64,000 bases of DNA from Jiangella mangrovi (lineage in GTDB: Bacteria; Actinomycetota; Actinomycetes; Jiangellales; Jiangellaceae), in the NCBI RefSeq assembly GCF_014204975.1, contig NZ_JACHMM010000001.1, positions 5,022,001 to 5,086,000 on the forward strand, given 5' to 3'. Made by a program: the position numbers and the translations under genes. Shown here piece by piece: positions 9,147 through 64,000 of the stretch; the first letter of the stretch is position 1; the number at the start of each line of letters is the position of its first letter. The notes under the pieces were generated by a model that was given only the letters and a program-made list of their open reading frames with translations, was not told the DNA's origin and did no database searches.

Positions 9147-9359
9147 ATGACCGGCCGAAGCGATCACCAGGGCGGCGGCTACGAGGACCCGGCCCAGCAA
9201 CCGCGCGACCGCGCGTCCGATGACCGGCCCAGCGCGTTCGAGCAGCCCGAGGAGCGTCAGGGCCGCTGGCCCGGCAGCACCGTGCTCCTCGCCGTCATCG
9301 TGGTGCTGTTCCTCGGCCTGCTCCTGCTCGGCCTCATCGGCTGGCTGGCGTCACGGTAG
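9147..9359 (+). CDS. Small C-tail-anchored membrane protein, DUF6480-like or unknown
   Basis: The 70-residue product has a polar, charged N-terminal half (DQ, RD and PEE clusters) and one C-terminal membrane helix (TVLLAVIVVLFLGLLLLGLIGWL). This layout is common in small actinobacterial stress-associated membrane proteins, but I cannot name the family securely. GGCAGGAGGG precedes the ATG at ideal spacing, which strongly supports translation. Its last nine bases overlap the end of the aldo/keto reductase gene on the opposite strand. Confidence 0.7.
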   Translation: MTGRSDHQGGGYEDPAQQPRDRASDDRPSAFEQPEERQGRWPGSTVLLAVIVVLFLGLLLLGLIGWLASR

Positions 9360-17627: not shown

Positions 17628-17666
17628 AGCCTGGACGGCTGCCGTCGCTGATACGGGCGTCGAATG

Positions 17667-17682
17667 TTGACACGATTCAAGG
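17667..17682. promoter_or_regulatory. LacI-type operator before the epimerase/dehydrogenase gene
   Basis: TTGACACGATTCAAGG is a further CG-centred, LacI-like half-symmetric site, about 20 bases upstream of the chosen start of the downstream gene. TTGACA may double as a -35 box, but no convincing -10 box follows. Confidence 0.55.
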
Positions 17683-17702
17683 TCTGGACCAGGATGTGGC
17701 CG

Positions 17703-18629
17703 GTGCGGATCGCGGTCACCGGCAGCTCGGGCAGGCTCGGGACGGCCACGCTGGAACGGTTGCGGGCCGGCGGGCACGACGTCGTCGGGTTCGACCTCGC
17801 GGGCCCGGCCGGGCCGGGGTTCGCCCGGGTCGACCTGGCCGACTACGGCCAGACCCTCGACGCGCTGCTCGGCGTGACGGCGCGGCACGACGGCGTCGAC
17901 GCACTGGTGCACCTGGCGGCCATCCCGGTGAACGGGCTGGTCCCCGACGTCACCACGTTCCACGCCAACCTGACGGCGTCGTTCAACACGCTGTTCGCGG
18001 CGCTCCGGGCCGGCGTGCGCACCGTCGTCTACGCATCGAGCATCACGGCCATGGGCTTCCCGTTCGCCGAGCCGCCGCCGTATCTCCCCCTCGACGAGGA
18101 ACACACCGCCGCGAACAACACGTACGGCCTGGTCAAGGTGCTCGAGGAGACGATGACCGGCCAGCTGGTGCGGTGGCACCCGGAGCTGTCGATGACAGCG
18201 CTGCGGTTCACCAACATCGTCACCCCGGACGGCTACGACACGTTCGCCCGGGCCGGCGACCCGGAGTACCGGCGCGACCTGCTCGGCTCGTACGTCGACG
18301 TGCGCGACGCGGCGACGGCAGTGGCGCTGGCGCTCGACGCGGCCCGGCCGGGGCTGGAGGTGTACGCCGTCGCGGCGGCCGACACCGGGCTGAGCATCCC
18401 GTCGGCCGATCTGGCCCGCCGCTGGTTTCCGAACGTTTCAGTCAGGCGGGAGCTGGGCGAGTTCGAGACGCTGATCTCGATCGACCGGGCCCACGACCGG
18501 CTCGGCTACCGGCCCGAGCACGACTGGCGCACCGAGTACGCCCGGCCGCGCCCGGACCGCCCGGACCGCCCGGACCGCCCGGACCGGCCGGACCGCCCGG
18601 ACCGGCCGGATCAGGCGGTGCCGCGGTGA
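17703..18629 (+). CDS. NAD-dependent epimerase/dehydratase (extended SDR; aldose/uronate-dehydrogenase-like)
   Basis: The 308-residue protein opens with the Rossmann motif IAVTGSSGRLG. The catalytic Ser is in VVYASSITAMG and the YxxxK pair in NTYGLVKVLEE. The size and the early VHLAAIPV motif resemble uronate dehydrogenase-like and NDP-sugar epimerase-like proteins. In this locus a sugar 1-dehydrogenase making a lactone for the neighbouring SMP-30 protein is a reasonable guess. The GTG at 17703 follows AGGA at good spacing; an ATG nine bases upstream is possible. The C-terminus has six Asp-Arg-Pro repeats and overlaps the convergent lactonase gene by 19 bases. Confidence 0.87.
   Translation: MRIAVTGSSGRLGTATLERLRAGGHDVVGFDLAGPAGPGFARVDLADYGQTLDALLGVTARHDGVDALVHLAAIPVNGLVPDVTTFHANLTASFNTLFAALRAGVRTVVYASSITAMGFPFAEPPPYLPLDEEHTAANNTYGLVKVLEETMTGQLVRWHPELSMTALRFTNIVTPDGYDTFARAGDPEYRRDLLGSYVDVRDAATAVALALDAARPGLEVYAVAAADTGLSIPSADLARRWFPNVSVRRELGEFETLISIDRAHDRLGYRPEHDWRTEYARPRPDRPDRPDRPDRPDRPDRPDQAVPR
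18555..18608. repeat. 9-bp tandem repeat encoding Asp-Arg-Pro
   Basis: Six in-frame units of GACCGCCCG, two of them with one base changed (GACCGGCCG), form the tail of the epimerase gene just before its overlap with the convergent gene. It looks like a slippage-grown C-terminal extension. Confidence 0.93.
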
Positions 18630-19501
18630 TGCGTCGCCGACCGGGTCGTGGTGCGGATCCGGTACAGGCTGGTGCTCGCCGTCACGAACAGCTCCGTGCC
18701 GTCGGCGCCGCCGAAGCAGACGTTCGAGACCTTCTCCGGCACCGGCACGTGGGCGACCCGGACGCCGTCGGGCGTGAAGACCTGCACGGAGTCCGCGCTG
18801 GACGACCAGATGCGACCCTCCTCGTCGACGCGGAAGCCGTCGGACGCGCCCGGGCGCACCGTCGCGAACACCCGCCCGTTCCCGCACCGGCCGCCGGCCA
18901 CGTCGTAGGCGCGGATCGACCGCGGCGCGTCGTCGCCGCCGTCCAGGTAGCCGGTGTCGGCGACGTACAGCACCGACTCGTCGGGCGAGAAGGCCAGTCC
19001 GTTGGGGTGCACCATGTCGGTGACGACGGCGCTCAGCTCGCCGCTCGCCTCGTCGTAGCGGAACACGAAGCAGCCGCCGTACTCCTGCTCCCCCGGGTGG
19101 CCCTCGCGGCCGCTCTCGTGGATGCCGTACGGCGGGTCGGTGAACCAGATCGAGCCGTCGCCGGCCACGACCACGTCGTTGGGCGAGTTGAAACGTCGTC
19201 CCTCGAAGCTGTCGACGATCGGGGTGACCATGCCGCCGACGTCGCGCTCCACCCGGCGCCGCCCGTGCGAGCACTGGACGACGTGGCCGTCGAGGTCGAG
19301 GACGCGGCCGTTGGTGTACTCGACGCCGGTGCCGTAGACCGTCGTCTCGCCGGTCGCCGCGTCCCACTCGAGGATGCGATCATTCGGGATGTCGCTCCAG
19401 CGCAAGCGCTGCGTCCGGGGCAGCCAGACCGGCCCCTCGGCCCAGACCGTCCCGGTGAACAGACGTTCCAGCGCCGCCCCGGCGGCCAGTGGGCTCGTCA
19501 C
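18611..19501 (-). CDS. SMP-30/gluconolactonase family protein
   Basis: This six-bladed beta-propeller enzyme of about 296 residues resembles calcium-dependent sugar lactonases. Metal-ligand-type blocks are visible: EGPVWLPRTQRLRWSDIPN (early Glu), NSPNDVVVAGDGSIWFTDPPYG (Asn), PNGLAFSPDESVLYVADTG (Asn) and ASDGFRVDEEGRIWSS (Asp). Family members hydrolyse aldonolactones to aldonates, which would follow the neighbouring dehydrogenase. The GTG at 19499-19501 is chosen from the start of homology; no strong ribosome-binding site is seen and a start up to 81 bases upstream cannot be excluded. It runs divergently from the LacI gene. Confidence 0.88.
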   Translation of the reverse strand: MTSPLAAGAALERLFTGTVWAEGPVWLPRTQRLRWSDIPNDRILEWDAATGETTVYGTGVEYTNGRVLDLDGHVVQCSHGRRRVERDVGGMVTPIVDSFEGRRFNSPNDVVVAGDGSIWFTDPPYGIHESGREGHPGEQEYGGCFVFRYDEASGELSAVVTDMVHPNGLAFSPDESVLYVADTGYLDGGDDAPRSIRAYDVAGGRCGNGRVFATVRPGASDGFRVDEEGRIWSSSADSVQVFTPDGVRVAHVPVPEKVSNVCFGGADGTELFVTASTSLYRIRTTTRSATHHRGTA

Positions 19502-20664: not shown

Positions 20665-21534
20665 ATGAGCGAGAACCTCACCATCGCGGTCATCGGCGCC
20701 GGCGGCAAGATGGGCATGCGAGTGTCCGACAACCTGCAGCGCACGCCGCACACCGTCCGCTACGCGGAGACGTCGCCGGCCGGCATCGAGCGGGTGACGG
20801 CGGCCGGGCGGACCGTGACGGCGACGGACGAGGCGGTGACCGGCGCCGACGTGGTGATCCTGGCGGTGCCGGACCTCGCGCTCGCTGCCGTGTCCGGCGC
20901 CGTCGTGCCGCGGCTGGAGCCCGGCGCGATCGTGCTGACGCTCGACCCGGCCGCTGTGTACGCCGGCCTGCTCGCCCGCCGCGACGACGTCGTCCAGGCG
21001 GTCGCGCACCCCTGCCACCCGTCGGTCTTCCTCGAACGGCACACCCCCGAGGAGTACGCCGACACCTTCGGCGGGATCGCGGCGCCGCAGGACGTGGTGG
21101 CGGCCATCGACGTGCCCGGCGCCTCGACCGACGGTGACGGCGCGCGCGAGCGGGCCGAGACGGTGATCCGGGCCATGTACGCGCCGGTGCTGGACGTGCA
21201 CTGGGTGACTGTCAAGCAGCTCGCCCAGCTGGAGCCGACCCTGGTCGAGACGATCGCCTGCATGATCGGCGCACTGCTGAAGGAGGCGCTCGACGAGGCG
21301 GTGTCGACCATGGGCGTCCCCGAGCCGGCCGCCCGGGCGATGCTGCTCGGCCACACCCAGGTCGCGCTGGCGAACTCGCTGCGCGGGTCGAACCCGTTCT
21401 CCGACGCCTGCCTGATCGCCATGGACTACGGTCGCGAGTCGATCGTCCGCGATGACTGGAAGAAGATCTTCCGCGACGACGAGCTCGACCGCGTGCTGGC
21501 CCGGATGCTGCACCTGGAGCGGATCGAGCGCTGA
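20665..21534 (+). CDS. D-apionate oxidoisomerase-like protein (phosphogluconate dehydrogenase C-terminal-type)
   Basis: The 289-residue protein begins with a Rossmann domain (IAVIGAGGKMGMRV, glycines at residues 11-17; ADVVILAVPD). Its C-terminal helical domain has the signature blocks HPCHPSVF, FGGIAAPQDVV, VTVKQLAQLEPTLVET, KEALDEAVSTMGVPEPAARAMLLGH and SDACL. To my knowledge these define the phosphogluconate-dehydrogenase-C-like family that contains D-apionate oxidoisomerase (ApnO), which oxidises apionate with hydroxymethyl migration to 3-oxo-isoapionate. Other members act on related acids, so the substrate is inferred. AGGAG precedes the ATG and a LacI-type operator lies upstream. It is the likely third oxidative step after the dehydrogenase and lactonase nearby. 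Confidence 0.8.
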   Translation: MSENLTIAVIGAGGKMGMRVSDNLQRTPHTVRYAETSPAGIERVTAAGRTVTATDEAVTGADVVILAVPDLALAAVSGAVVPRLEPGAIVLTLDPAAVYAGLLARRDDVVQAVAHPCHPSVFLERHTPEEYADTFGGIAAPQDVVAAIDVPGASTDGDGARERAETVIRAMYAPVLDVHWVTVKQLAQLEPTLVETIACMIGALLKEALDEAVSTMGVPEPAARAMLLGHTQVALANSLRGSNPFSDACLIAMDYGRESIVRDDWKKIFRDDELDRVLARMLHLERIER

Positions 21535-21780: not shown

Positions 21781-23109
21781 GTGTACACAGCTGTCACCCG
21801 GCGCCGACGTGGCGCCGCCCTGCTGGCGTCGGCCAGTGTGGTCGCCGTCCTGGCCGCGTGCGGCGGCGACGATTCGGCCTCGGGCTCCGGCGGGGGCGGC
21901 GGCGACGGCGCCTCCGAGTTGTCCGCGCTGTTCACCACCGAGAACGCTCAGGTGCCGGCCGCGCTGAACGACCTCGCCGCCGGCGCCTGCAAGGCCGAGA
22001 ACGACGCCCTGCCGCTGGCCATCGAGCAGACGCCCGGCACGAACATGCAGCAGAAGGTGCAGCTGCTCGCCGGCCAGGACGCCCTGCCGGTGTTCTTCGC
22101 CGCGAACAATCCGTTCATCGTCCCGGGCGGAGCGCTGCAAGAGGCCGGTCAGGTCGCCGACTTCGACGAGGTCCTCACCGACCTCGGCGTCATCGACCAG
22201 GTGACGCCGGCCGCGCGCTCCACCGTCGACAAGCTGTTCGACGGCGCGTTCCCGTCGCTGCCGTTCCAGTTCAATATCGAGGGCATCTTCTACAACAAGC
22301 AGCTCTTCGCCGACAACGGCCTCGAGGTCCCCACGACCTGGGACGGCCTGCTCGACTCGGCTCAGACGCTGAAGGACGCCGGAATCACCCCGTTCACCGC
22401 GTCGGGCAAGACCGGCTGGACCATCAGCCGCTGGATCGGCGCCTATCTGTTCCGCGCCATCGGTCCGGAGGCGATGGACGCGATCCAGGCCGGCGACGCG
22501 AAGCTCACCGACCCCGAGTACGTCGAGGCCGCCCAGGCGGTCGCCGGCCTCGGCGAGTCGGGCTTCTTCACCGAGGGCATCACGAACCTCGACTTCGACA
22601 CCGCGCAGCAGCAGCTGCTCGACGGCGACGTCGCGATGATGTACGGGCTGACGTCCATGCTGTCGAAGATCAACGACCCGGAGCTCAACAACGTCGGCGC
22701 CGAGAACATCGGCTTCATGCCGTTCCCGGAGGTCGAGGGCGGCGCCGGCACCATCGCGCAGCTCCCGGCCAACGTCGGCTCCCCCACCGCCATGTCCTCG
22801 AAGCTGTACGACGACGCCGTCGGCGACTGGCTGACCTGCATCGCGAACAACTTCGCCGACAACGTCATGGAGAACCAGGGCACGTTCTCCGGGTTCAAGC
22901 TCAGCGCGCCGCCCGAGAACGTCCCGCCGCTGACCGCGGAGCTGCAGACGCTCATCGACAACACCGACGAGACCGTCCTGTGGTTCGAGGCGCTGTTCCC
23001 GCAGAAGGCCGTCACCGACGCCAGCAACAACGCCGCGCCGCTGGTCACGGGCGCGATGTCGGCCGACCAGTACATGCAGATCCTGCAGGCCGACGTCGAC
23101 GCCGGCTGA
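21781..23109 (+). CDS. CUT1 sugar-binding lipoprotein, cassette 2
   Basis: The 442-residue binding protein has a basic N-terminus, a hydrophobic signal and the lipobox VLAACGG, followed by a Gly/Ser linker. The mature domain shares long blocks with the cassette-1 protein, including SLPFQFNIEGIFYNKQLFADNGLEVPTTW and AMMYGLTSMLSKI, so the two are paralogues. It binds a sugar outside the membrane and hands it to the permeases that follow after 16 and 13 bases. The start is a GTG preceded by GGGAGG. Divergence of the ligand-contact regions between the two copies suggests related but different sugars. Confidence 0.92.
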   Translation: MYTAVTRRRRGAALLASASVVAVLAACGGDDSASGSGGGGGDGASELSALFTTENAQVPAALNDLAAGACKAENDALPLAIEQTPGTNMQQKVQLLAGQDALPVFFAANNPFIVPGGALQEAGQVADFDEVLTDLGVIDQVTPAARSTVDKLFDGAFPSLPFQFNIEGIFYNKQLFADNGLEVPTTWDGLLDSAQTLKDAGITPFTASGKTGWTISRWIGAYLFRAIGPEAMDAIQAGDAKLTDPEYVEAAQAVAGLGESGFFTEGITNLDFDTAQQQLLDGDVAMMYGLTSMLSKINDPELNNVGAENIGFMPFPEVEGGAGTIAQLPANVGSPTAMSSKLYDDAVGDWLTCIANNFADNVMENQGTFSGFKLSAPPENVPPLTAELQTLIDNTDETVLWFEALFPQKAVTDASNNAAPLVTGAMSADQYMQILQADVDAG

Positions 23110-23125
23110 GCAGGGAAGGGACAGC

Positions 23126-24010
23126 ATGCGTCAGGTACTCGGCAGCAAACGGGCCGTCGCGCTCCTGCTCGGCCCCGCGCTGCTCGTCTACATCGGGGTG
23201 ATGATCGTCCCGGTGGTGTGGTCGCTGGTGTACTCGTTCTTCACCGGCAACGTCATCCAGGGCTTCGACTACGTGGGCGTCGACAACTTCACCCGGCTGT
23301 TCGACGACCCCGTGATCCACTCGGCGCTCTGGTTCACCGTGAAGTACGCGCTGGTCCGCACTGCCGGGCAGATCGTGCTCGGGTACCTGCTCGCGCTGTT
23401 GTACGTGTTCGTGCTGCGCCGGAGCTCGTCGCTGATCAGGACGCTGGTGTTCTTCCCGGTGGTCCTGCCGTCGGTCGCGATCGGGCTGTTGTTCAGCAAG
23501 TTCTTCGGGACCGTGCCGCAGGAGGGTCCGATCAACGCCTTTCTCGGCCTGTTCGGCGTGAGCCAGTTCGACTGGTTCGCCTCCGGCGGCACGGCCTTCT
23601 GGGTGATCATCATCATGGACCTCTGGACGACCATGGGGTTCTACGCCGTCCTCCTCTACGCCGGACTGATCGAGATCCCGCAGGAGGTCATCGAGTCCGC
23701 CCGCATGGACGGCGTCCGCTCGTTCTCGATGTTCCGCTACATCGTGCTGCCGATGTCGCTGCCGGTGCTGCTCTCGTCGATCATCTTCAGCCTGAACTCG
23801 TCGCTGAAGGTGTTCGACTCGATCGTCGCGCTGACGAACGGCGGCCCGGGCACGGCGACGACACCCCTGAACCTCTACATGTTCCAGACGTCGTTCCTGT
23901 ACAGCGACTACGGCTACGGCAGCACCATCGCCCTGCTCATCACCGTCCTCTGTCTCGCGGTCACGCTGCTGATCTTCCGGTCGTCCCGGCGAGACCTGAC
24001 GCAGAGCTAG
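23126..24010 (+). CDS. CUT1 sugar ABC permease (MalF-like), cassette 2
   Basis: A 294-residue inner-membrane permease with six predicted helices, starting AVALLLGPALLVYIGVMIVPVVWSL, and the EAA loop SARMDGVRSFSMFRYIVLPMSLP. The C-terminal block ALTNGGPGTATTPLNLYMF is typical of CUT1 transporters. It matches the cassette-1 permease in length and layout. It pairs with the permease directly downstream and needs an ATPase encoded outside this cassette. Confidence 0.92.
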   Translation: MRQVLGSKRAVALLLGPALLVYIGVMIVPVVWSLVYSFFTGNVIQGFDYVGVDNFTRLFDDPVIHSALWFTVKYALVRTAGQIVLGYLLALLYVFVLRRSSSLIRTLVFFPVVLPSVAIGLLFSKFFGTVPQEGPINAFLGLFGVSQFDWFASGGTAFWVIIIMDLWTTMGFYAVLLYAGLIEIPQEVIESARMDGVRSFSMFRYIVLPMSLPVLLSSIIFSLNSSLKVFDSIVALTNGGPGTATTPLNLYMFQTSFLYSDYGYGSTIALLITVLCLAVTLLIFRSSRRDLTQS

Positions 24011-24023
24011 AGAGGAGGACGAC

Positions 24024-24929
24024 GTGAGTACCCAGACCTTGACGACGGCGACGGCGGACGCCCCGCCCCCGCGCCACCCCGGCCCGCCACGCCCGGGCCT
24101 GCCGGCGACCACCCGCAAGTGGCTGGTCCGCGGGCTGATCGCGGTGATCCTGGTGATCGAGATCTACCCGATCTTCTGGATCCTGAGCGGCTCGTTCAAG
24201 ACGCAGGAGCAGTTCCTCAACGAGCCGCTCTGGTCGTTGCCGACCAGCTTCGGCTTCGACAACTTCGTCACCGCGATGACGACGGGCAACCTCGGCACCA
24301 ACCTGCTCAACAGCCTGATGGTGACGGTCCCGTCGCTGCTGCTGATCCTGGCGCTCGGCGCGGGCGCGGCGTTCGCGCTCGAGGTGATGCTCTGGCCTGG
24401 CCGCACGAAGGTGCTGCTGTTCGTGGTCGCCGGCATCATGGTGCCGGCGCAGATCATCCTGCTGCCGCTGTTCACCATCTACTACCGGCTCGGGCTGACC
24501 GACTCGCTCTGGCCATTGATCATCACCTACGTCGGGCATGGCCTGCCGCTGACGGTGTTCCTGCTGGCCACGTACTTCCGAGCGGTCCCACGCGAGCTGT
24601 TCGAGGCGTGCGCGCTGGACGGCGGCGGGACGCTGCGCTGCTTCCTGTCGGTCGGACTGCCGATGATCCGCAACGGGCTGTTCACCGTCGCGCTGCTGAT
24701 GTTCTTCTCGGTGTGGAACGACCTGCTCATCGCGCTGACCTTCAACACCCGCTCCGACCTCGCAACGGTTCAAGTGGGGCTGCTGAACTTCAACGGCGAG
24801 TACGGCTCGGTGGCGTACGGCCCGCTCTTCGCCGCCATCAGCACGACCATCCTGGGCACGCTCGTCGTCTACCTGTCGATCAACCAGCAGGTGATGAAGG
24901 GCGTCGCCGCCGGATCGCTGAAGGGATAG
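24024..24929 (+). CDS. CUT1 sugar ABC permease (MalG-like), cassette 2
   Basis: The 301-residue permease starts at GTG after an AGAGGAGG element. A Pro-rich N-terminus precedes the first helix (GLIAVILVIEIYPIFWIL), and five more helices surround the EAA loop (ACALDGGGTLRCFLSVGLPMI). The C-terminal block ATVQVGLLNFNGEYGSVAYGPLFA mirrors the cassette-1 copy. It ends six bases before the amidohydrolase gene, so importer and downstream enzymes form one operon. Confidence 0.92.
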   Translation: MSTQTLTTATADAPPPRHPGPPRPGLPATTRKWLVRGLIAVILVIEIYPIFWILSGSFKTQEQFLNEPLWSLPTSFGFDNFVTAMTTGNLGTNLLNSLMVTVPSLLLILALGAGAAFALEVMLWPGRTKVLLFVVAGIMVPAQIILLPLFTIYYRLGLTDSLWPLIITYVGHGLPLTVFLLATYFRAVPRELFEACALDGGGTLRCFLSVGLPMIRNGLFTVALLMFFSVWNDLLIALTFNTRSDLATVQVGLLNFNGEYGSVAYGPLFAAISTTILGTLVVYLSINQQVMKGVAAGSLKG

Positions 24930-28346: not shown

Positions 28347-28396
28347 CACCGCAGTTCCTCCCTGGCGCGACTGCCGTGGAACCACTAATGTGTCCG

Positions 28397-28406
28397 TTGT
28401 ATACGA
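28397..28406. promoter_or_regulatory. Candidate GntR-type operator between ADH and TcuA-like gene
   Basis: TTGTATACGA contains the palindrome GTATAC and resembles the TTGTATACAA sites of many GntR regulators. Related sequences lie at 34939-34948 and 35053-35062 in front of the transporter and the GntR-containing operon. Confidence 0.5.
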
Positions 28407-28434
28407 AGCACACACTGAGTGTAGGGCAGGGTTC

Positions 28435-29946
28435 ATGGGAACGGTGCGGGACGGTCACCAGGCAGCGGACGTCGTGGTCGTCGGGACGGGCAACGCGGCG
28501 CTGACCGCGGCCCTGTCGGCGGCGAAGGAGGGCCGGCGCACCGTCGTGCTCGAGAAGGCGCCGCACGACCGCATGGGCGGCAACTCCTTCTACACCGCCG
28601 GCGCCTACCGCATCGGCGTCGACTCCGTCGAGACGCTGGCCGACATCCTCGGCGAGGACGGCATGCGCGAGCGCGTCCGGCCGAACACCGACCTGCCGAC
28701 GTACTCCGCGAAGGAGTTCGAGCGCGACCTCGACCGCATCACCGGCGGGCGCACCGACCCCGTCCTGGCGCAGCAGATCATCGACGGGTCGGCCGAGACC
28801 GCCCGCTGGCTGCGCGACCAGGGCGTGCCGTGGACGCTCATGTACGACCGCCAGTCCCACCACGTCGACGGGCGCTGGCAGTTCTGGGGCGGCCTCTTCC
28901 TCGGCGTCGACGGCCAGGGCCCGGTGCTGGTCGACCGGCTCTACCAGGCCTGCCTGCAGGCCGGCGTGACGTTCCGGTTCGAGACCCCCGTCGTCGACCT
29001 CGGCTTCGACGAGCGCCTGCGCCGCGTCGACCACGTCCTCGCCTACGACCTGCGCGAGCAGCAGCCCGTCCGCATCGACGCCCACGCCGTCGTCCTCGGG
29101 TCCGGCGGGTTCGAGGCCAACCCGCGGCTGCGCGCCGCCTACCTCGGCCCCGGCTGGGACCTCGCGCACGTGCGCGGCACCCCGTTCAACACCGGCGAGC
29201 TGCTCGAGACCGCCGTCACCTCGTGGGCCGGCTCGGCCGGCGAGTGGAGCGGCGCGCACGCCACCGCCTGGGACGCCTCGACCAACCCGCACGCCGGCGA
29301 CCCCGAGCTCAGCAACCGGGCCACCAAGCAGGGCTACTGGCTGGGCATCGTCGTCAACCTGCACGGCGAGCGCTTCCTCGACGAGGGGGCAGACTTCCGC
29401 AACTTCACCTACGCCAAGTACGGCCGCGAGATTCTCGCCCAGCCGTCGCGCCGCGCGTTCCAGGTCTTCGACAGCCAGACCATCGGCCTCGTCGACCCGG
29501 CCGAGTACGACCCCGCCGTCGCGCCGCGCGTCATGGCCGACACCATCGAGGAGCTCGCCAACGGTGCCGGCATCGACGCGCCGAGCCTGCGCCGCACCGT
29601 CGACCGTTTCAACGCCGCCGCCTCGGACGCCCCGTTCGACCCCACGTCGCGCGACGGCAAGGCCGCGGCCGACCTGTGGCCGCCGAAGAGCAACTGGGCG
29701 GTCCCTCTCGAGCAGCCGCCGTTCTACGCCTTCGAGGTCACCTGCGGCATCACGTTCACCTTCGGCGGCCTGCGGGTCGACGGCGAGGCGGGGGTGATCG
29801 GACGGACGGGGCAGCGGATCGCCGGACTCTACGCCGCCGGCGAGACCGTCGGCGGCATCTTCTACGGCAACTACCCGGGCGGCTCCGGCCTCTCGGCGGG
29901 CGCGGTGTTGGGCCGCCGCGCGGGGCTGGCCGCCGCCTCCGAGTAG
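28435..29946 (+). CDS. FAD-dependent tricarballylate dehydrogenase (TcuA)-like protein
   Basis: The 503-residue flavoprotein starts with VVVVGTGNAALTAALSAAKEGRRTVVLEKAP (FAD site) and the GGNSFYTAGAYR block. It ends with FGGLRVDGEAGVI, GLYAAGETVGGIFYGNYPGGSGLSAG, typical of the fumarate-reductase/TcuA branch. TcuA oxidises tricarballylate to cis-aconitate and usually needs the electron-transfer protein TcuB, for which no gene is seen here. A tripartite tricarboxylate transporter encoded 6 kb away fits an acid substrate. A different tricarboxylate or unsaturated acid is equally possible. The ATG is preceded by GTAGGG. Confidence 0.85.
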   Translation: MGTVRDGHQAADVVVVGTGNAALTAALSAAKEGRRTVVLEKAPHDRMGGNSFYTAGAYRIGVDSVETLADILGEDGMRERVRPNTDLPTYSAKEFERDLDRITGGRTDPVLAQQIIDGSAETARWLRDQGVPWTLMYDRQSHHVDGRWQFWGGLFLGVDGQGPVLVDRLYQACLQAGVTFRFETPVVDLGFDERLRRVDHVLAYDLREQQPVRIDAHAVVLGSGGFEANPRLRAAYLGPGWDLAHVRGTPFNTGELLETAVTSWAGSAGEWSGAHATAWDASTNPHAGDPELSNRATKQGYWLGIVVNLHGERFLDEGADFRNFTYAKYGREILAQPSRRAFQVFDSQTIGLVDPAEYDPAVAPRVMADTIEELANGAGIDAPSLRRTVDRFNAAASDAPFDPTSRDGKAAADLWPPKSNWAVPLEQPPFYAFEVTCGITFTFGGLRVDGEAGVIGRTGQRIAGLYAAGETVGGIFYGNYPGGSGLSAGAVLGRRAGLAAASE

Positions 29947-57240: not shown

Positions 57241-58020
57241 ATGCGGATCGGCGACCTCGAACTGCTGCCGATGTCCGACGGCACCTTCGTCGCCCGGCCC
57301 GCGTACTTCACCCGCGGCCCGGTCCCCGATCCGCCGCCCGCCCCTTTCGGCCCCGACGGCGTCGCCTGGCTGCCGATCGGCTGTTTCCTCGTCCGCACCG
57401 GCGACCGCGTGGTGCTGGTCGACGCGGGCCTCGGCCCGGCGCGGACGGAGCTGCCCGACGGCATGGCGCTGGTCGGCGGCCAGCTGCCGACGGCGCTGCT
57501 GGCGTCGGGCACGCGACCCGAGGACGTCACCGACGTCGTCTGCACGCACCTGCACTCCGACCACGTCGGGTGGCTGTTCGACCACGACGGCCGGACGGTG
57601 TTCCCGGCCGCGACGGTGTGGTTCGGCGCCGGCGAGGACGACGGTGAGCTGGCCGATCACGTCCGGGCCGGCCTCCGCGCCGGCACGACCGACGCCGAGA
57701 CCGTCGACGGCGACCACACCATCGCGCCGGGGGTCGACGTCGTCGCGACGCCGGGGCACACGCCCGGCCACCTCGCGGTCGTCGTCTCCGGCGGCGGCGA
57801 CCGCGCGATCCTCGTCGGCGACGCCATCACCTGCCCGGTCCAGCTGGCCGAGCCGACGTGGCACTCGTTCGGCGACGCCGACCCCGATCAGGCCGACCGC
57901 AGCCGCGAGCTCCTCTGGGCCGAGCTGGCCCGCCCGCGCACCGTCGGCACCGGCGCTCACTTCCCCGAGTTGCGCTTCGGGCGGGTCGCTTCCTCGAGCA
58001 GCTCGAGGACGTGGCGGTAG
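57241..58020 (+). CDS. Metallo-beta-lactamase-fold hydrolase
   Basis: The 259-residue protein has the zinc-binding HxHxDH motif in CTHLHSDHVGW (near residues 102-107), His in TPGHTPGHL, Asp in LVGDAIT and His in GTGAHFPE. This is the full binuclear set of quorum-quenching-lactonase/glyoxalase-like enzymes. The start follows GGGAGG. Beyond the last His the protein runs on as RFGRVASSSSSRTWR, and its final 64 bases overlap the dehydrogenase gene on the other strand. Confidence 0.9.
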   Translation: MRIGDLELLPMSDGTFVARPAYFTRGPVPDPPPAPFGPDGVAWLPIGCFLVRTGDRVVLVDAGLGPARTELPDGMALVGGQLPTALLASGTRPEDVTDVVCTHLHSDHVGWLFDHDGRTVFPAATVWFGAGEDDGELADHVRAGLRAGTTDAETVDGDHTIAPGVDVVATPGHTPGHLAVVVSGGGDRAILVGDAITCPVQLAEPTWHSFGDADPDQADRSRELLWAELARPRTVGTGAHFPELRFGRVASSSSSRTWR

Positions 58021-60806
58021 GGCCTGCCCGTCGCCCGCGTCATCCCCAGCTCGCACGTGCGGTTGCAGGAGGCGTACTGGTCGGCCTCCCCGGCGGCGGC
58101 GACGGTGCCGGCTTCGGCCTCCGTGGCGGCGCGGGTGAGCTCGGGGTGCAGCAGTCCGCGGTCGCCGGCGAAGCCGCAGCAGCCCCAGTTCGAGGGCACG
58201 ACGGCCTCGCGCGCGACGGCGCTGCCCAGCGCCACGAGGTCGTCGACCTCACCGAGGTGGACGCTGGCGCACGTCGGGTGCAGCACCAGCCGATCGATCA
58301 GCCGGTCCGGAGCCACCGGCCCGAGCCGCGGCAGCACCTCCGCCCGCACGAACGAGACCACGTCCACCACGCGCACCCGCGCCCACCGTTCCGCGTCCGG
58401 CGACGGCAGGAGCGACGCCAGCCCGGCCAGTCCGTGCGAGCAGGACGAGGCGTCGGCGACGACCGGCAGCGAGCCGCCGGCGGTCAGCGGCCAGAGCGCG
58501 TCGAACACCTGCTGCGCCATGACCGCCGCGCCTGCCTTCAGCCCTTTCGACGACCACGGGGTGCCGCAGCACAGCGACGGCGTCCGGGCGGCGATGGCCA
58601 CCGCCACGCCGGCCCGCTTCGCCAACGCCAGGAACGCCGCGGTCGCGCCCTCGCCGTCGCCCTCGGGCGCGAACAGCGCCCCGATGCAGGCCGGGAAGAA
58701 CACCACCTCGGCCGCCGACGACGGGCCGGCGCCCACGGACACCGACGGTCGGGGCCGGCCCGGCCCCGGCAGCCCACCGTCCGCCGACGGGATCCACTCC
58801 GTCCCCAGCACGGCCCTGGCCAGCGACGACGCCCCGGACACCACGGAGTCGGGCAGCGCCGAGGCGACCCGAAGCCCGGCCCGCGCCGCACCCACGCCGA
58901 CACCCCAGTGCCGAGCGGCGACGGAGCCGGCCTTCTGCGCCACCGGCCCCAACCCGTCGGCCCGCCGGGCCTTCATCGCCTGCCCGGTGTCGATCTTCAC
59001 GGGGCACGCGGTGACGCAGAGCGAGTCCGCCGCGCAGGTCTGCACGGCGAGGTACTCGTACTCCTTCTCCAGCTCCGCGCGCACCGCGGGCGGCGCCACC
59101 GCGATCTCGCGCAGCAGCGCGATCCGCTGTCGCGGCGTCGTCGTGACCCCGCGCGACGGGCACACCGGCTCGCAGTAGCCGCAGTCGACACAGGTGTCGA
59201 GCGCGGGGTCGACCGGCGGCACGGTCTTGAGGTGGCGCAGGTGCGCCTGCGAGTCCTCGTCGAGCACGACCCCGGGCGCCAGCACGCCGCGCGGGTCGCA
59301 CAGCGCCTTCACCTCGCGCATGACGGCGTACAGCTCCTCGCCGTACTGCCGGCGGACGTACGGCGCCATGATGCGCCCGGTGCCGTGCTCGGCCTTGAGC
59401 GAGCCGTCGGCGCCGAGTACGAGGTCGACGAGGTCCTCGGTGAAGGCGGCGTAGGCGTCCAGCTCGCGCGGGTCGTCGAGCCGCGGCGTGATCATGAAGT
59501 GCAGGTTCGCGTCGCGCGCGTGCCCGAAGATGACGGCGTCGCCGTAGGCGTACCGGTCGAACAGCGTCTGCAGGTCGCGCACGGCCGGCCCCAGGGACGC
59601 AGCCGGCACGACGATGTCCTCGAGCAGCGCCGTCGTCCCCTGCGGCCTGGCACCGGCCACCGTCGCGTACAGGTCCTTGCGCACGTGCCAGGCGGCGGCC
59701 CGCTCGCCCGCGTCGGAGGACAGGCCGCCCGGCACGCTGAGCGGCAGCCGGTCGACGACGGCGCCGACGCCGGCCGCCATCGCCGCCAGCTCCACATCGG
59801 ACGCCGCCGCCACCTCGACCAGCAGCGCCGTGTGCTGCTCGATGCGCAGCGACCGGATGACCGCGGGCGCACCCGGGTCGGCGGCGGCCACCCGCAGCGA
59901 CGTCGCGTCCATCAGCTCGACGGCGACCGCTCCGGCCCCGACCAGCGCGGGCAGCGCGTCGACGGCGGCGTCGATGCCGTCGAACACCAGCAGTGCCGTC
60001 GCGACGTGCGGCAGCACCGGCAGCGTGTCGAACGTCGCCGACGCGACGAACGCCAGCGTCCCCTCGGACCCGACCACCAGGTGGGCCAGGATGTCGGCCG
60101 GGGTGTCGTGGTCGAGGAAGGCGTTGAGGCCGTAGCCCATGGTGTTCTTCATCGAGAACTGGTGCTCGATGCGCCCGCGCAGCACGGTGTCGGCACGCAG
60201 CCGGTCACGCAACCGCGCCAGTCCCGCGTGCAGCGCCGGTTCCAGCGCCGCCAGGCGCCCGTCGGCCTCGGGCGCTGCGGTGTCGAGGTAGGTCCCGCTG
60301 GGCAGCACCAGCTCGAGCCCGGCCAGCGTGCGGTACGCCGTCGCCGTCGTCGAGCTGGTCATGCCGGAGGAGTTGTTCGCGACCACGCCGCCCACCGTGC
60401 AGGCGGCCTCGCTGGCCGGGTCGGGCCCGAGCCGGCGGCGATACGGCGCCAGCGCGGCGTTGACCCGGCGCACGACGGCGCCCGGCTCGGCCCGCACCCG
60501 CGCGCCGTCGTCGAGCACCGTCACGCCACCGAAGTGCCGGCGGGTGTCGACGAGGACGGCGTCGGTGCCGGCCTGCCCGGACAGGCTGGTCCCGCCCGAG
60601 CGGAACGTCAGCGGCACACCGTCGCGGTGCGCGGTCGCGAGCAGCGCGGCCACCTCGGGCACGGACGACGGCGTCACCACCGCGGCCGGCGTGAGCAGAT
60701 AGTGCGAGGCGTCGTGGGCCATCCGCGCTCGGTCGGCGATGCGCTCGCTGACCTGGGCGGATCCCACCGCGGCACGCAGTGCGTCGAGGTCGATGACGGA
60801 GGTCAC
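57957..60806 (-). CDS. FAD/Fe-S dehydrogenase fusion (GlcD-GlcF/D-lactate dehydrogenase type)
   Basis: This 949-residue fusion oxidises a 2-hydroxyacid such as glycolate or D-lactate and passes electrons to the respiratory chain. The N-terminal VAO-type FAD domain shows GGTSLSGQAG (near residue 83) and CTVGGVVANNSSGM. The FAD C-terminal domain ends EHGTGRIMAPYVRRQYG. Two ferredoxin motifs follow: CVDCGYCEPVCP near residue 540 and CAADSLCVTACP near 592. Two CCG-type motifs close it: LCCGTPWSSKG near 747 and WGCCGFAGDRG near 877. The GTG at 60804-60806 fits the start of homology. It is divergent from the RuBisCO-like protein, with a GntR-type operator between them. Confidence 0.92.
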   Translation of the reverse strand: MTSVIDLDALRAAVGSAQVSERIADRARMAHDASHYLLTPAAVVTPSSVPEVAALLATAHRDGVPLTFRSGGTSLSGQAGTDAVLVDTRRHFGGVTVLDDGARVRAEPGAVVRRVNAALAPYRRRLGPDPASEAACTVGGVVANNSSGMTSSTTATAYRTLAGLELVLPSGTYLDTAAPEADGRLAALEPALHAGLARLRDRLRADTVLRGRIEHQFSMKNTMGYGLNAFLDHDTPADILAHLVVGSEGTLAFVASATFDTLPVLPHVATALLVFDGIDAAVDALPALVGAGAVAVELMDATSLRVAAADPGAPAVIRSLRIEQHTALLVEVAAASDVELAAMAAGVGAVVDRLPLSVPGGLSSDAGERAAAWHVRKDLYATVAGARPQGTTALLEDIVVPAASLGPAVRDLQTLFDRYAYGDAVIFGHARDANLHFMITPRLDDPRELDAYAAFTEDLVDLVLGADGSLKAEHGTGRIMAPYVRRQYGEELYAVMREVKALCDPRGVLAPGVVLDEDSQAHLRHLKTVPPVDPALDTCVDCGYCEPVCPSRGVTTTPRQRIALLREIAVAPPAVRAELEKEYEYLAVQTCAADSLCVTACPVKIDTGQAMKARRADGLGPVAQKAGSVAARHWGVGVGAARAGLRVASALPDSVVSGASSLARAVLGTEWIPSADGGLPGPGRPRPSVSVGAGPSSAAEVVFFPACIGALFAPEGDGEGATAAFLALAKRAGVAVAIAARTPSLCCGTPWSSKGLKAGAAVMAQQVFDALWPLTAGGSLPVVADASSCSHGLAGLASLLPSPDAERWARVRVVDVVSFVRAEVLPRLGPVAPDRLIDRLVLHPTCASVHLGEVDDLVALGSAVAREAVVPSNWGCCGFAGDRGLLHPELTRAATEAEAGTVAAAGEADQYASCNRTCELGMTRATGRPYRHVLELLEEATRPKRNSGK

Positions 60807-60825
60807 GAGAGCGAACCTACTCCTA

Positions 60826-60866
60826 TGGTCTGACCACTTGCGCGAGCCCTGGCCCGACTGTATGGT
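60826..60866. promoter_or_regulatory. GntR-type operator and promoter for the RuBisCO-like gene
   Basis: TGGTCTGACCA (60826-60836) is a perfect palindrome of the TGGT-n-ACCA kind bound by FadR/LldR/PdhR-class GntR regulators. TTGCGC (60838-60843) and TATGGT (60861-60866), 17 bases apart, form a promoter toward the RuBisCO-like gene; the -10 box overlaps another TGGTC half site. The regulator is not encoded next to it. Confidence 0.65.
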
Positions 60867-60929: not shown

Positions 60930-62189
60930 GTGACGGTGAACGTCCTGGCGACGTACGAGATCGCGACCGCGCTCCCCCTGGAGAAGGCGGCCGCCGTCAT
61001 CGCCGGCGAGCAGTCCAGCGGCACGTTCGTCGCCGTGGCGCGCGAGACCGGTGAGCTGAAGGCCCGGCACGCCGCCACCGTCCGGTCCATCGAGGAGCTG
61101 CCGCTCAGCGGCCGCCCGCCGCTCCCCGGCGCCGTCGGCGACTGGTCCGCGGCCCGCCGCTCCCGCATCGTCGTCGAGTTCCCGGTCGTCAACTTCGGCC
61201 CGTCGGTGCCCAACCTGCTCGCCGCCGTCGCCGGCAACCTGTTCGAGCTGCGCGAGCTGGGCGAGCTGCGGCTGGTCGACCTCGACGTCCCCGACGTCTT
61301 CGGCTCCGTCTACGCCGGCCCGGCCTTCGGTGTCGACGGCACCAAGCGGCTCGTCGGCAAGAGCGGCGACCGGGGTCCGCTCATCGGCACCATCGTCAAG
61401 CCGAGCATCGGCCTCGGCCCCGAGGAACTGGCCGAGCTGGTCGAGGAGCTGGCGCTGGCCGGCATCGACTTCATCAAGGACGATGAGCTGCAGGGCAACC
61501 CGCCGGGGTTCCCGCTGGCCGAGCGGGTCAGCGTCGTCATGGACGTGCTCAAGCGCACCGCCGACCGCACCGGCGTCATGCCGATGTACGCGTTCAACAT
61601 CACCGACGACATCTCGAACCTCGCCCGCAACCACGACCTCGTCCGGGCCGCGGGCGGTAGCTGCGTCATGATCGTCATCAACTCCGTCGGCTTCGCCGGG
61701 GTGCAGTACCTGCGCGAGCGGTCCGAGCTGCCCATCCACGGGCACCGGGCGATGTTCGGCGCGTTCGCCCGGTCGCCGCAGCTGGGCATCGCGTTCCGAG
61801 TGTTCCAGAAGCTGGCCCGCCTCGTCGGCGTCGACCACCTGCACACCAACGGCATCGCGAACAAGTTCTACGAGACCGACGACGAGGTCGTCGCGTCCAT
61901 CACCGACGTGCGCGCCCCACTGCTCGGCGGCTACCACGTCGTGCCGGTGCTCTCGTCGGGCCAGACGCCGGCCATCGCCGACGTCACGTACGCGCGGGTC
62001 GGCGACCCCGGCGACCTGCTGGTGCTGGCCGGCGGCGGCATCCACGCGCACCCGGGCGGCTCCGGCGCCGGGGTCACGGCCATGCGCGACGCGTGGGACG
62101 CCGCGGTCACCGGCGAGGCGCTGGCCGACCGGGCCGAGCGCTCCCCCGCGCTGGCGGCGTCGCTCGCCCAGTTCGGGGCGAGGCCATGA
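60930..62189 (+). CDS. RuBisCO-like protein (form IV; 3-oxo-isoapionate-4-phosphate-enzyme-like)
   Basis: This 419-residue protein has the RuBisCO large-subunit fold. Residues corresponding to the carbamylated Lys and metal ligands are kept in DFIKDDE (Lys183, Asp185, Glu186). The KPK motif reads VKPSIG, losing its second Lys, HGHRAM replaces HIHRAM, and the phosphate loop reads LAGGGIHAHPGGSGAG. Loop 6 differs from true RuBisCO, so CO2 fixation is unlikely. RuBisCO-like proteins beside a DUF1537 kinase include the characterised 3-oxo-isoapionate-4-phosphate decarboxylase and transcarboxylase/hydrolase (OiaX, OiaT) of D-apiose catabolism. Which reaction applies cannot be decided here. The GTG follows GGAGG; the stop overlaps the kinase start. 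Confidence 0.88.
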   Translation: MTVNVLATYEIATALPLEKAAAVIAGEQSSGTFVAVARETGELKARHAATVRSIEELPLSGRPPLPGAVGDWSAARRSRIVVEFPVVNFGPSVPNLLAAVAGNLFELRELGELRLVDLDVPDVFGSVYAGPAFGVDGTKRLVGKSGDRGPLIGTIVKPSIGLGPEELAELVEELALAGIDFIKDDELQGNPPGFPLAERVSVVMDVLKRTADRTGVMPMYAFNITDDISNLARNHDLVRAAGGSCVMIVINSVGFAGVQYLRERSELPIHGHRAMFGAFARSPQLGIAFRVFQKLARLVGVDHLHTNGIANKFYETDDEVVASITDVRAPLLGGYHVVPVLSSGQTPAIADVTYARVGDPGDLLVLAGGGIHAHPGGSGAGVTAMRDAWDAAVTGEALADRAERSPALAASLAQFGARP

Positions 62190-63433
62190 CCGCGGCCGGC
62201 TTCTACGGCGACGACTTCACCGGCTCTGTCGACGCGCTGGTCCAGTTCCGCCGGGCCGGGTGCGACGGCGTCCTGGTGACCTCGGCCGACGGCGTGAAAG
62301 GCGCGCTGGGCGGGGACCCGGACGTGGTGGGCATCGCAGGTGTCGCGCGGTCTCTGCCGACGGCTGAGCTGGAGGCCGAGGTGCGGCCCGCGCTCGTGCT
62401 GCTGCGCGACCTGCGCGTCCCGGTCGTGCAGTACAAGGCCTGCTCGACGGCGGACTCCTCGCCGTCCGTGGGGAGCCTGGGCCGGGTCCTCGAGATCGCC
62501 CGCGACGTGTTCGGCCCGGCGACCGTCCCGGCGCTGTTCGCCCAGCCCGACTTCGGCCGCTACACCGTCTTCGGCCACCACTTCGCCCGCGACGGCGAGC
62601 GGGTATACCGGCTGGACCGGCAGCCGACCATGTCGACCCATCCGGTGACGCCGATGACGGAGTCCGACCTCGCCCGGCACCTCGGCGCGCAGACGGCGCT
62701 GCCGGTCGGGTCGCTGCCCTGGACCGCGTACGAGGCCGGAGCGGACGCCGTCGCCCGCTTCTGGCAGGAGAGCGACGATGCCGCCGTCGTCTGCGACGGG
62801 TTCACCGACGAGCATCTCGAGCTGATCGGCCGGGCCGTCCTCGCGGGCGACTCCCCGTTCGTGCTCGGCGCCGGCGGACTGAGCCTCGGCATCGGCCGGG
62901 CGCTCGGCCGCGCGGCCACGCCCCCACCCACGAGCACGACGCCGTCGCCCGGTCCCACGCTGGTGCTGAGCGGCAGCGGCTCGCCGCGCACGGCCGCGCA
63001 GGTGGTGGCGGCCGAGCGGGCCGGCTGGACGACCGTCCACCTGCTCACGCCCGGCGCCGTCGACGAGGCCGTCGCCCTGCACGCCGCCGGAGACGACGTC
63101 GTCGTGCACACCACCCGGCCCGCGACGCCCGGCACGGGAACGGCCACCAGCAGCGAGATCGAGGAGCGGCTGGCCCGCATCGGCGCCGCCTGCCTGGCCC
63201 GCGACCCGCGCACCCGGCTGATCGTCTGCGGCGGCGACACCTCCGGCAACGTGCTGCGCCGGCTCGGCGCCGACTCCCTGGCGGTCGCCGCGCTGCCCTG
63301 GGGCAACGTCGCCCTCTGCCACGCGAGCGGAGCCCCGTTCGACCGGCCCGTCGAGGTCGTCCTCAAGGGCGGCCAGCAGGGCCACGACGACCTGTTCGAC
63401 GACGTCCGCACCGCCCGGCCCCGACGACTCTGA
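62186..63433 (+). CDS. Four-carbon acid sugar kinase family (DUF1537), 3-oxo-isoapionate-kinase-like
   Basis: A 415-residue kinase with the N-terminal substrate domain (GFYGDDFTGSVDALVQFRRAG; YKACSTADSSPSVGSLGRVLE; PDFGRYTVFGHHFARDG). The C-terminal nucleotide-binding domain shows LVLSGSGSPRTAAQV, LIVCGGDTSGNVLRRLG and VLKGGQQGHDDLF. The family phosphorylates acid sugars such as 3-oxo-tetronate, threonate or 3-oxo-isoapionate. Direct coupling (ATGA) to a RuBisCO-like protein argues for the OiaK-like role of making its phosphorylated substrate. It is followed nine bases later by the GH127 gene. Confidence 0.9.
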   Translation: MTAAGFYGDDFTGSVDALVQFRRAGCDGVLVTSADGVKGALGGDPDVVGIAGVARSLPTAELEAEVRPALVLLRDLRVPVVQYKACSTADSSPSVGSLGRVLEIARDVFGPATVPALFAQPDFGRYTVFGHHFARDGERVYRLDRQPTMSTHPVTPMTESDLARHLGAQTALPVGSLPWTAYEAGADAVARFWQESDDAAVVCDGFTDEHLELIGRAVLAGDSPFVLGAGGLSLGIGRALGRAATPPPTSTTPSPGPTLVLSGSGSPRTAAQVVAAERAGWTTVHLLTPGAVDEAVALHAAGDDVVVHTTRPATPGTGTATSSEIEERLARIGAACLARDPRTRLIVCGGDTSGNVLRRLGADSLAVAALPWGNVALCHASGAPFDRPVEVVLKGGQQGHDDLFDDVRTARPRRL

Positions 63434-63442
63434 AGGACACGG

Positions 63443-64000
63443 ATGCTCACCGACACCAGCAGCAGTCCCTTCGCGACGATGACCTCGCTCCGGCCGCGGT
63501 CGGCGGCGATCACCGGCGGCGGCCCGCTCGCCCGGCTGCGCGACCAGGCGCTCGCCGTCACGATCCCGACCATGGGCGAGATCATGTTCGACGCGGACAT
63601 CGCCCACGCCTACGAGAACTTCCTCGTGGCCGCGGGCGAGGTCGAGGGCACGCACGTCGGCCCGCCGTTCATGGACGGCGACCTCTACAAGTGGCTCGAG
63701 GCGGCGGTCGTGGTCGACGGCGAGGCCGGCGGCGAGTCGCCGTTCTCGGACTGGATCCGCCGGGCCGCGAAGGCGATCGCCGCCGCCCAGCAGGACGACG
63801 GCTACGTCCATACGAAGACCACGATCTCCGAGCGCACCGGCGGCGACCTGCGCCCGCTGCAGCGGCGGATGGACTTCGAGACCTACAACTTCGGCCACCT
63901 CATGACGCTGGCCTGCGTCCACCACCGGATGACCGGCGACGACGCCTACCTGACGCTGGCGACCAACGTGGCCGGCTACCTGCGCTCGGTGCTCGACGCC
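63443..64000 (+). CDS. Glycoside hydrolase family 127 (beta-L-arabinofuranosidase, DUF1680), 5' part
   Basis: The first 186 codons are in the window and the frame runs off the edge. Recognisable blocks are AHAYENFLVAAGEVEG, PFMDGDLYKWLEAAVVV, DWIRRAAKAIAAAQQDDGYVHTKTTI and YNFGHLMTLACVHHRMTGDDAYL, the alpha/alpha-barrel start of DUF1680/GH127 proteins. These enzymes release L-arabinofuranose from plant glycans; the catalytic Cys/Glu cluster lies beyond the edge. AAGGACACGG precedes the ATG. It sits in the same run as the RuBisCO-like protein and kinase, linking them to plant-polysaccharide use. Confidence 0.87.
   Translation, partial: MLTDTSSSPFATMTSLRPRSAAITGGGPLARLRDQALAVTIPTMGEIMFDADIAHAYENFLVAAGEVEGTHVGPPFMDGDLYKWLEAAVVVDGEAGGESPFSDWIRRAAKAIAAAQQDDGYVHTKTTISERTGGDLRPLQRRMDFETYNFGHLMTLACVHHRMTGDDAYLTLATNVAGYLRSVLDA

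Follow-up and report, generated by a model that had tools for sequence, protein, structure and literature searches.

RuBisCO-like proteins (RLPs) are known for both the decarboxylation and the transcarboxylation/hydrolysis of 3-oxo-isoapionate-4-phosphate (PMC6302742). In the corresponding D-apiose pathways, an RLP (OiaX or OiaT) is found beside a DUF1537 kinase (OiaK), and its substrate is a branched beta-keto acid in phosphorylated form (Carter et al. 2018, in PMC6302742). A further RLP, from Ochrobactrum anthropi, accounts for the last step of a D-hamamelose pathway leading to 3-phosphoglycerate and a two-carbon acid (Kim et al. 2018, in PMC8914248, PMC10176493). In glycan degradation, BT1003 of Bacteroides thetaiotaomicron is reported to be the enzyme that hydrolyses off aceric acid during degradation of rhamnogalacturonan II (RG-II) (PMC5698469, PMC10850190). 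Here, we describe an operon of Jiangella mangrovi encoding an RLP, a DUF1537 kinase and a BT1003-type protein of glycoside hydrolase family 127 (GH127). It begins in a window of 64 kb, the whole stretch of DNA that was analysed (positions 5,022,001–5,086,000 of the 7.16 Mb single-contig genome). Sequence comparisons lead us to favour, with some reserve, a role of this operon in L-aceric acid catabolism, its kinase and RLP probably being shared with D-apiose catabolism in Jiangella.

Compared to the D-apiose pathways, the locus shares the RLP–kinase pair, and a homologue of the D-apionate oxidoisomerase ApnO is encoded in the same window. However, the operon is devoid of ApnO, ApnL and ApsD and carries GH127 and an Asp/Glu-racemase-fold protein (RAC) instead, while its RLP lies apart from the annotated OiaX clade and scores under the cut-off for OiaX. 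The O. anthropi RLP, which was compared by description only, resembles the proposed route in being the last step of a branched-sugar pathway, but is reported as an oxygenase and serves another sugar.

Organisation of the operon and family assignment

A first-pass annotation, made from the DNA sequence alone, had proposed an RLP gene, a translationally coupled DUF1537 kinase gene and a GH127 gene. All three are real, based on their Pfam domains and on the kinase start, which shares the sequence ATGA with the stop codon of the RLP gene (Table 1). The extent of the operon had been missed: the plus-strand run comprises eight overlapping or closely spaced genes and reaches 6.3 kb beyond the window edge, with RAC, a CUT1 importer and a SorC/DeoR-type regulator following GH127. 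Family searches across the operon genes recognised no apiose dehydrogenase, apionolactonase or oxidoisomerase, and no aldolase. The RLP gene is the only RuBisCO-family gene in the genome; the RLP of Jiangella aurantiaca is 89% identical.

An active-site alignment confirmed that the RLP keeps the carbamylation and metal triad, with Lys183, Asp185 and Glu186 aligning with K201, D203 and E204 of RuBisCO, and that the KPK motif is absent, reading KPS. The loss of loop-6 features, also claimed at first, did not hold, since the RuBisCO lysine K334 is retained as K312. Equivalents of E60, T65, N123, K175, H294, R295, H327 and S379 and the phosphate-site glycines are kept as well. The protein is nevertheless distinct from the CO2-fixing RuBisCO forms I–III, as seen from KPS, the replacements W66 to F33 and H298 to F276, and scores under the RuBisCO cut-offs.

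The best NCBIfam matches are OiaX for the RLP (NF042437, 401 bits) and OiaK for the kinase (NF042436, 224 bits), against a curated cut-off of 700 in both cases. The OiaK with OiaX or OiaT branch named in the first-pass annotation thus stands at the family level, whereas both scores lie far under the cut-offs. The kinase also remained below the cut-off of the OtnK model (NF043035, 152 against 350 bits); its membership in the DUF1537 family is supported by PF07005 and PF17042, both above the gathering score. In a tree of 97 rows, the RLP was placed in an actinobacterial clade separate from NCBI-annotated OiaX, and it does not belong to the methionine-salvage enolases either (MtnW model TIGR03332, 153.8 bits compared to a cut-off of 513.6).

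The GH127 protein belongs to the BT1003 clade

Membership in GH127 is evident from the PF07944 catalytic domain and the E-x-C and CC zinc-site motifs. By far the closest solved relative is BT1003 (5mqo, 510 bits), compared to 330 bits for 4qjy and 228 for HypBA1. We aligned 29 RLP-linked GH127s with BT1003, 4qjy, 6ex6, HypBA1 and four other Jiangella paralogues. An insert of about 17 residues (ALYDG.SPDG) is common to BT1003 and all 29 RLP-linked proteins, which also share a Gln at the site of the HypBA1 acid/base Glu322; 4qjy, 6ex6 and the four paralogues lack the insert and have Glu at this site. BT1003 groups within the RLP-linked set, apart from other GH127, which places the J. mangrovi enzyme in the BT1003 clade. 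The earlier label of a GH127-type hydrolase was therefore correct as to the family, but the protein is not a generic arabinofuranosidase. It differs from BT1003 in its operon context with kinase and RLP and in its sequence, in which no signal peptide was seen; because of the latter, it is probably cytoplasmic and acts on an imported glycoside.

At the acid/base site (Q321 in the J. mangrovi protein), the whole BT1003 clade carries the same Glu-to-Gln change as the HypBA1 mutant E322Q (7exu). Catalysis in this clade may be substrate-assisted by the carboxylate of the sugar.

Gene neighbourhoods across bacterial genomes

In total, 80 named loci as well as plasmid loci were gathered, their genes were clustered and marker proteins were mapped; the following counts use the 76 RLP loci of at least 15 kb. 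Two types of RLP–kinase loci were distinguished. Type A carries an apiose set consisting of ApnO, the D-apionate lactonase ApnL (NF049900 as best match) and a Gfo/Idh dehydrogenase, and type B, to which J. mangrovi belongs, carries RAC and a BT1003-type GH127. RAC was present in every GH127 locus (23/23). ApnO was found in none of these, compared to 21 of the 53 remaining loci, and a GH2 beta-galactosidase in 14 of the 23 compared to 5/53. Among the 38 RAC loci, ApsD was absent and ApnO occurred in three. In the RLP tree, the GH127–RAC pairing appears in three or more separate clades. The layout, for which the first-pass annotation knew of no description, is conserved as a module across several phyla.

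Ten type B genomes encode no ApnO anywhere (Pedobacter, Flavobacterium, Runella, Bythopirellula, a Chloroflexi bacterium, four Paenibacillaceae and Granulicella, spanning Bacteroidota, Planctomycetota, Chloroflexota, Paenibacillaceae and Acidobacteriota), although the same search picked up homologues as divergent as 38–40% elsewhere. In these genomes, RLP and kinase must receive their substrate by a different route, and RAC is their consistent partner. Of eight genomes of Kribbella, Paenibacillus and Occultella in which RAC is not encoded beside the RLP, six have it elsewhere, at more than 260 bits; most type A genomes have none. Plasmids carry such genes as well: an RLP–kinase pair lies among GH28, GH78, GH2 and fucosidase genes on a Streptomyces plasmid, and RLP–kinase–RAC adjoins a pectinesterase gene on a Rufibacter plasmid.

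In the Bacteroidota class sampled (295 genomes), all three RLP-positive genomes have a BT1003-type GH127, which occurs in 11 genomes overall. The other eight of these 11 (class of locus L083) have no RLP of this kind, so that many degraders may free aceric acid but not consume it through the route considered here.

A candidate pathway for L-aceric acid

Few plant polysaccharides are as complex as RG-II, and the way in which aceric acid is removed from it is known from BT1003. Aceric acid (3-C-carboxy-5-deoxy-L-xylose), an aldose with a tertiary carboxyl group, occurs in side chain B of RG-II; apiose belongs to the same side chain. Our literature search found nothing on aceric acid metabolism after release within the searchable papers. 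Our data show which genes are present and co-occur, the clades to which they belong, the residues of the active sites and the predicted RAC fold; we infer the substrate, the order of steps, the chemistry of RAC and the products.

In the proposed route, the CUT1 importer would take up an aceric-acid oligosaccharide, from which the cytoplasmic GH127 would free aceric acid. RAC would then turn the aldose into the 2-ketose 3-C-carboxy-5-deoxy-pentulose, CH2OH-CO-C(OH)(COOH)-CHOH-CH3, to be phosphorylated at O1 (C1) by the DUF1537 kinase. The predicted product is an analogue of 3-oxo-isoapionate-4-phosphate with CH(OH)CH3 replacing CH2OH, a beta-keto acid that would mimic the carboxylation intermediate of RuBisCO. 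Because aceric acid already carries the tertiary carboxyl group, one aldose–ketose shift would suffice, and the pathway could dispense with the dehydrogenase, lactonase and oxidoisomerase that apiose requires. Finally, the RLP would decarboxylate the phosphorylated ketose and, more likely, recarboxylate and hydrolyse it to 3-phosphoglycerate and L-lactate.

With respect to this last step, the first-pass annotation had left the choice between decarboxylation and transcarboxylation/hydrolysis open. In RuBisCO chemistry, E60, N123 and H327 matter for carboxylation and hydration. Their equivalents are E27, N103 and H305 in the RLP, but D, G and Q in NCBI-annotated OiaX, and because they are kept we favour transcarboxylation/hydrolysis over plain decarboxylation. 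An OiaX-like enzyme that simply releases CO2 and a 5-deoxy-pentulose 1-phosphate for an aldolase would agree with OiaX being the best family match; this appears doubtful given the position outside the annotated OiaX clade, the retained residues and the lack of a recognised aldolase gene in the operon.

The weakest step of the model is the isomerisation by RAC. A structure prediction of high confidence assigned RAC to the Asp/Glu racemase fold (PF01177 superfamily; predicted local distance difference test score, pLDDT, 94.7; template-modelling score 0.7–0.8 to aspartate/glutamate racemases). Like these enzymes, it has the first catalytic cysteine, C74, which is invariant; unlike them, it has Gln182 at the position of the second and is encoded in sugar operons. 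The two-cysteine pattern of the Asp/Glu racemases is thus incomplete, and a single proton-shuttling base would suit an aldose–ketose isomerase. On a Haladaptatus halobius plasmid (L169:5675-8648), a RAC homologue adjoins genes for a class II aldolase and a DUF1537 kinase, a hint that the RAC family may act as carbonyl isomerases in sugar-acid pathways. RAC homologues on rhizobial plasmids lie in unrelated amino-acid-type clusters and do not help to fix the role.

In actinobacteria, apiose is probably a second sugar handled by the RLP and kinase, because ApnO co-occurs with the RLP in Jiangella (7/7 RLP-positive and 0/5 RLP-negative genomes of the 12 analysed) and Microbacterium-type genomes have homologues of the GH78, importer and uronate-dehydrogenase-like genes of the window directly beside RAC–GH127–RLP–kinase. 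The ApnO gene of J. mangrovi, missed by the first-pass annotation, lies 40 kb upstream of the RLP, outside the operon. Apiose would enter via the dehydrogenase, lactonase and ApnO of the cluster at 17–27 kb, which would supply this kinase and RLP with 3-oxo-isoapionate. The apiose pathway suggested earlier thus gains from this co-occurring homologue, but the GH127 operon itself points to aceric acid rather than apiose, because its GH127 is of the BT1003 type, apiose enzymes are missing from it and ApnO-less genomes share the set.

The full reading, with RAC as isomerase, the kinase, and an RLP that transfers the carboxyl group and cleaves the product, would be the first L-aceric acid catabolic pathway and would use one kinase–RLP pair for both branched sugars of side chain B; we put it forward tentatively. 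Such a pathway would be new, yet assembled from known enzyme families, as a variant of the RLP–DUF1537 branched-sugar pathways. If true, the reading offers a candidate for the entire route, in which the RuBisCO-like reaction and the use of the Asp/Glu racemase fold would both be new; relatives would add a new GH127-like hydrolase family, and one RLP–kinase pair could serve two branched sugars that are close together on one side chain.

Points against the proposed aceric acid route and alternative explanations

Several observations weigh against the proposed route. The GH127 protein scored 678 bits compared to the cut-off of 950 of the aceric acid hydrolase model NF049879, and the BT1003 clade has one characterised member only. 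The assignment of the RLP as transcarboxylase/hydrolase rests on retained residues. The fold family of RAC is known for racemases and decarboxylases, not for sugar isomerases, its second catalytic cysteine is absent, and the aldose–ketose isomerase reaction is a guess. In addition, the compared loci are related, so that the counts are not phylogenetically independent and p-values are too small. ApnO was found in 13 of the 14 actinobacterial type B genomes tested, and among actinobacteria gene content alone cannot separate apiose from aceric acid use.

Another branched or carboxylated sugar acid, for example hamamelose-like or tetronate-like, could be the substrate, with the GH127 clade having a specificity other than aceric acid. 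The Ochrobactrum RLP for D-hamamelose, with 3-phosphoglycerate and glycolate as end products (PMC8914248), the several specificities of GH127 members and the Haladaptatus gene arrangement would be compatible with this. We consider it unlikely, since the loci repeatedly contain a BT1003-type GH127 together with genes for beta-galactosidase, rhamnosidase and pectin breakdown, which fits RG-II side chain B.

Quite unlikely is a use for apiose only, with the kinase as OiaK and the RLP as OiaX/OiaT fed solely by ApnO, while GH127 frees apiose or a different sugar and RAC plays an accessory part. The best NCBIfam matches, the perfect co-occurrence in Jiangella and the frequent ApnO in actinobacterial type B genomes argue for it, but the bit scores, the near-absence of ApnO from the GH127 and RAC loci and the lack of an apiose dehydrogenase or lactonase in the operon do not. 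We dropped this purely apiose reading based on the GH127 loci without ApnO, the recurrence in separate RLP clades and the ApnO-less type B genomes.

Finally, an ordinary beta-L-arabinofuranosidase supplying L-arabinose, unrelated to RLP and kinase, was dropped as highly improbable after comparing clade, insert and Gln site: GH127 was founded on such enzymes and the zinc-site motifs are retained, but the protein is separated from HypBA1, 4qjy, 6ex6 and the Jiangella paralogues and is strictly linked to RAC and RLP.

Further features of the window and related loci

A second sugar-acid cluster spans positions 9351–31191 of the window and comprises the ApnO homologue, two CUT1 importers, a GH78 protein, an SMP-30 lactonase, an amidohydrolase and a 2-hydroxyacid dehydrogenase. 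It is a probable apiose front end without its own kinase and RLP.

The FAD/Fe-S fusion protein FADFeS, encoded divergently from the RLP, was considered as oxidiser of the hydroxy-acid product. This candidate was dropped, as it is present in 5/5 RLP-less Jiangella genomes and absent from two RLP-positive ones. Although FADFeS is found near the cluster in 9 of the 23 GH127 loci, its position beside the RLP is probably incidental.

Table 1. Coordinates of the operon, of other features of the window and of the c10 family (window numbering unless a locus is given).
Feature	Position	Strand	Remarks
RLP	60930-62189	+	GTG start, 419 aa; PF00016 211 bits, PF02788 41 bits
DUF1537-family sugar-acid kinase	62186-63433	+	415 aa; PF07005 173 bits, PF17042 69 bits
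GH127	63443-65434	+	663 aa; PF07944 273 bits; window ends at 64000
RAC, Asp/Glu-racemase-fold protein	65466-66128	+	Operon gene 4; outside window
Tat-lipoprotein sugar-binding protein of CUT1 importer	66181-67491	+	Family searches; outside window
CUT1 permeases, two	67488-68456, 68453-69343	+	Family searches; outside window
SorC/DeoR-type regulator	69340-70332	+	Family searches; outside window
ApnO homologue	20665-21534	+	PF16896 193 bits; candidate second feeder of RLP/kinase
NAD-dependent epimerase/uronate-dehydrogenase-like protein	17664-18629	+	Family searches
SMP-30/gluconolactonase-like protein	18611-19501	-	Candidate apionolactonase
CUT1 sugar importer (binding protein, two permeases)	21781-24929	+	Adjoins ApnO
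GH78 alpha-L-rhamnosidase	10199-12841	-	Homologues 62-77% identical in RLP/GH127 clusters of other actinobacteria
FAD-dependent tricarballylate dehydrogenase TcuA	28348-29946	+	510 bits, NCBIfam cut-off 369; beside ApnO cluster
FADFeS	57957-60827	-	GlcD/GlcF-like FAD/Fe-S fusion
c10	L059:7544-9259	+	Relatives in L011, L035, L036, L043, L051, L053, L056, L062, L065, L066, L073, L078, L082

In RLP–kinase loci of Paenibacillus, Cohnella, Kribbella and Streptomyces, the place of GH127 is taken by a 576-aa family, c10, which has no Pfam or NCBIfam match. The two never occur in the same locus (0/14 overlap). For an AlphaFold model of c10 (mean pLDDT 78), all 21 best matches in the Protein Data Bank were GH127 or GH146 proteins. 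Like these arabinofuranosidases, c10 keeps the E-x-C and CC motifs, but its identity to GH127/GH146 structures is 12–16%. Based on the predicted fold, c10 looks like a non-orthologous replacement of the GH127 step and may represent a new family of glycoside hydrolases that release aceric acid.

One contig (L033) is recorded under the title Planococcus sp. APC 4015, but its cluster is of the Microbacteriaceae type and its RLP groups with those of actinobacteria; the record is probably misnamed or contaminated.

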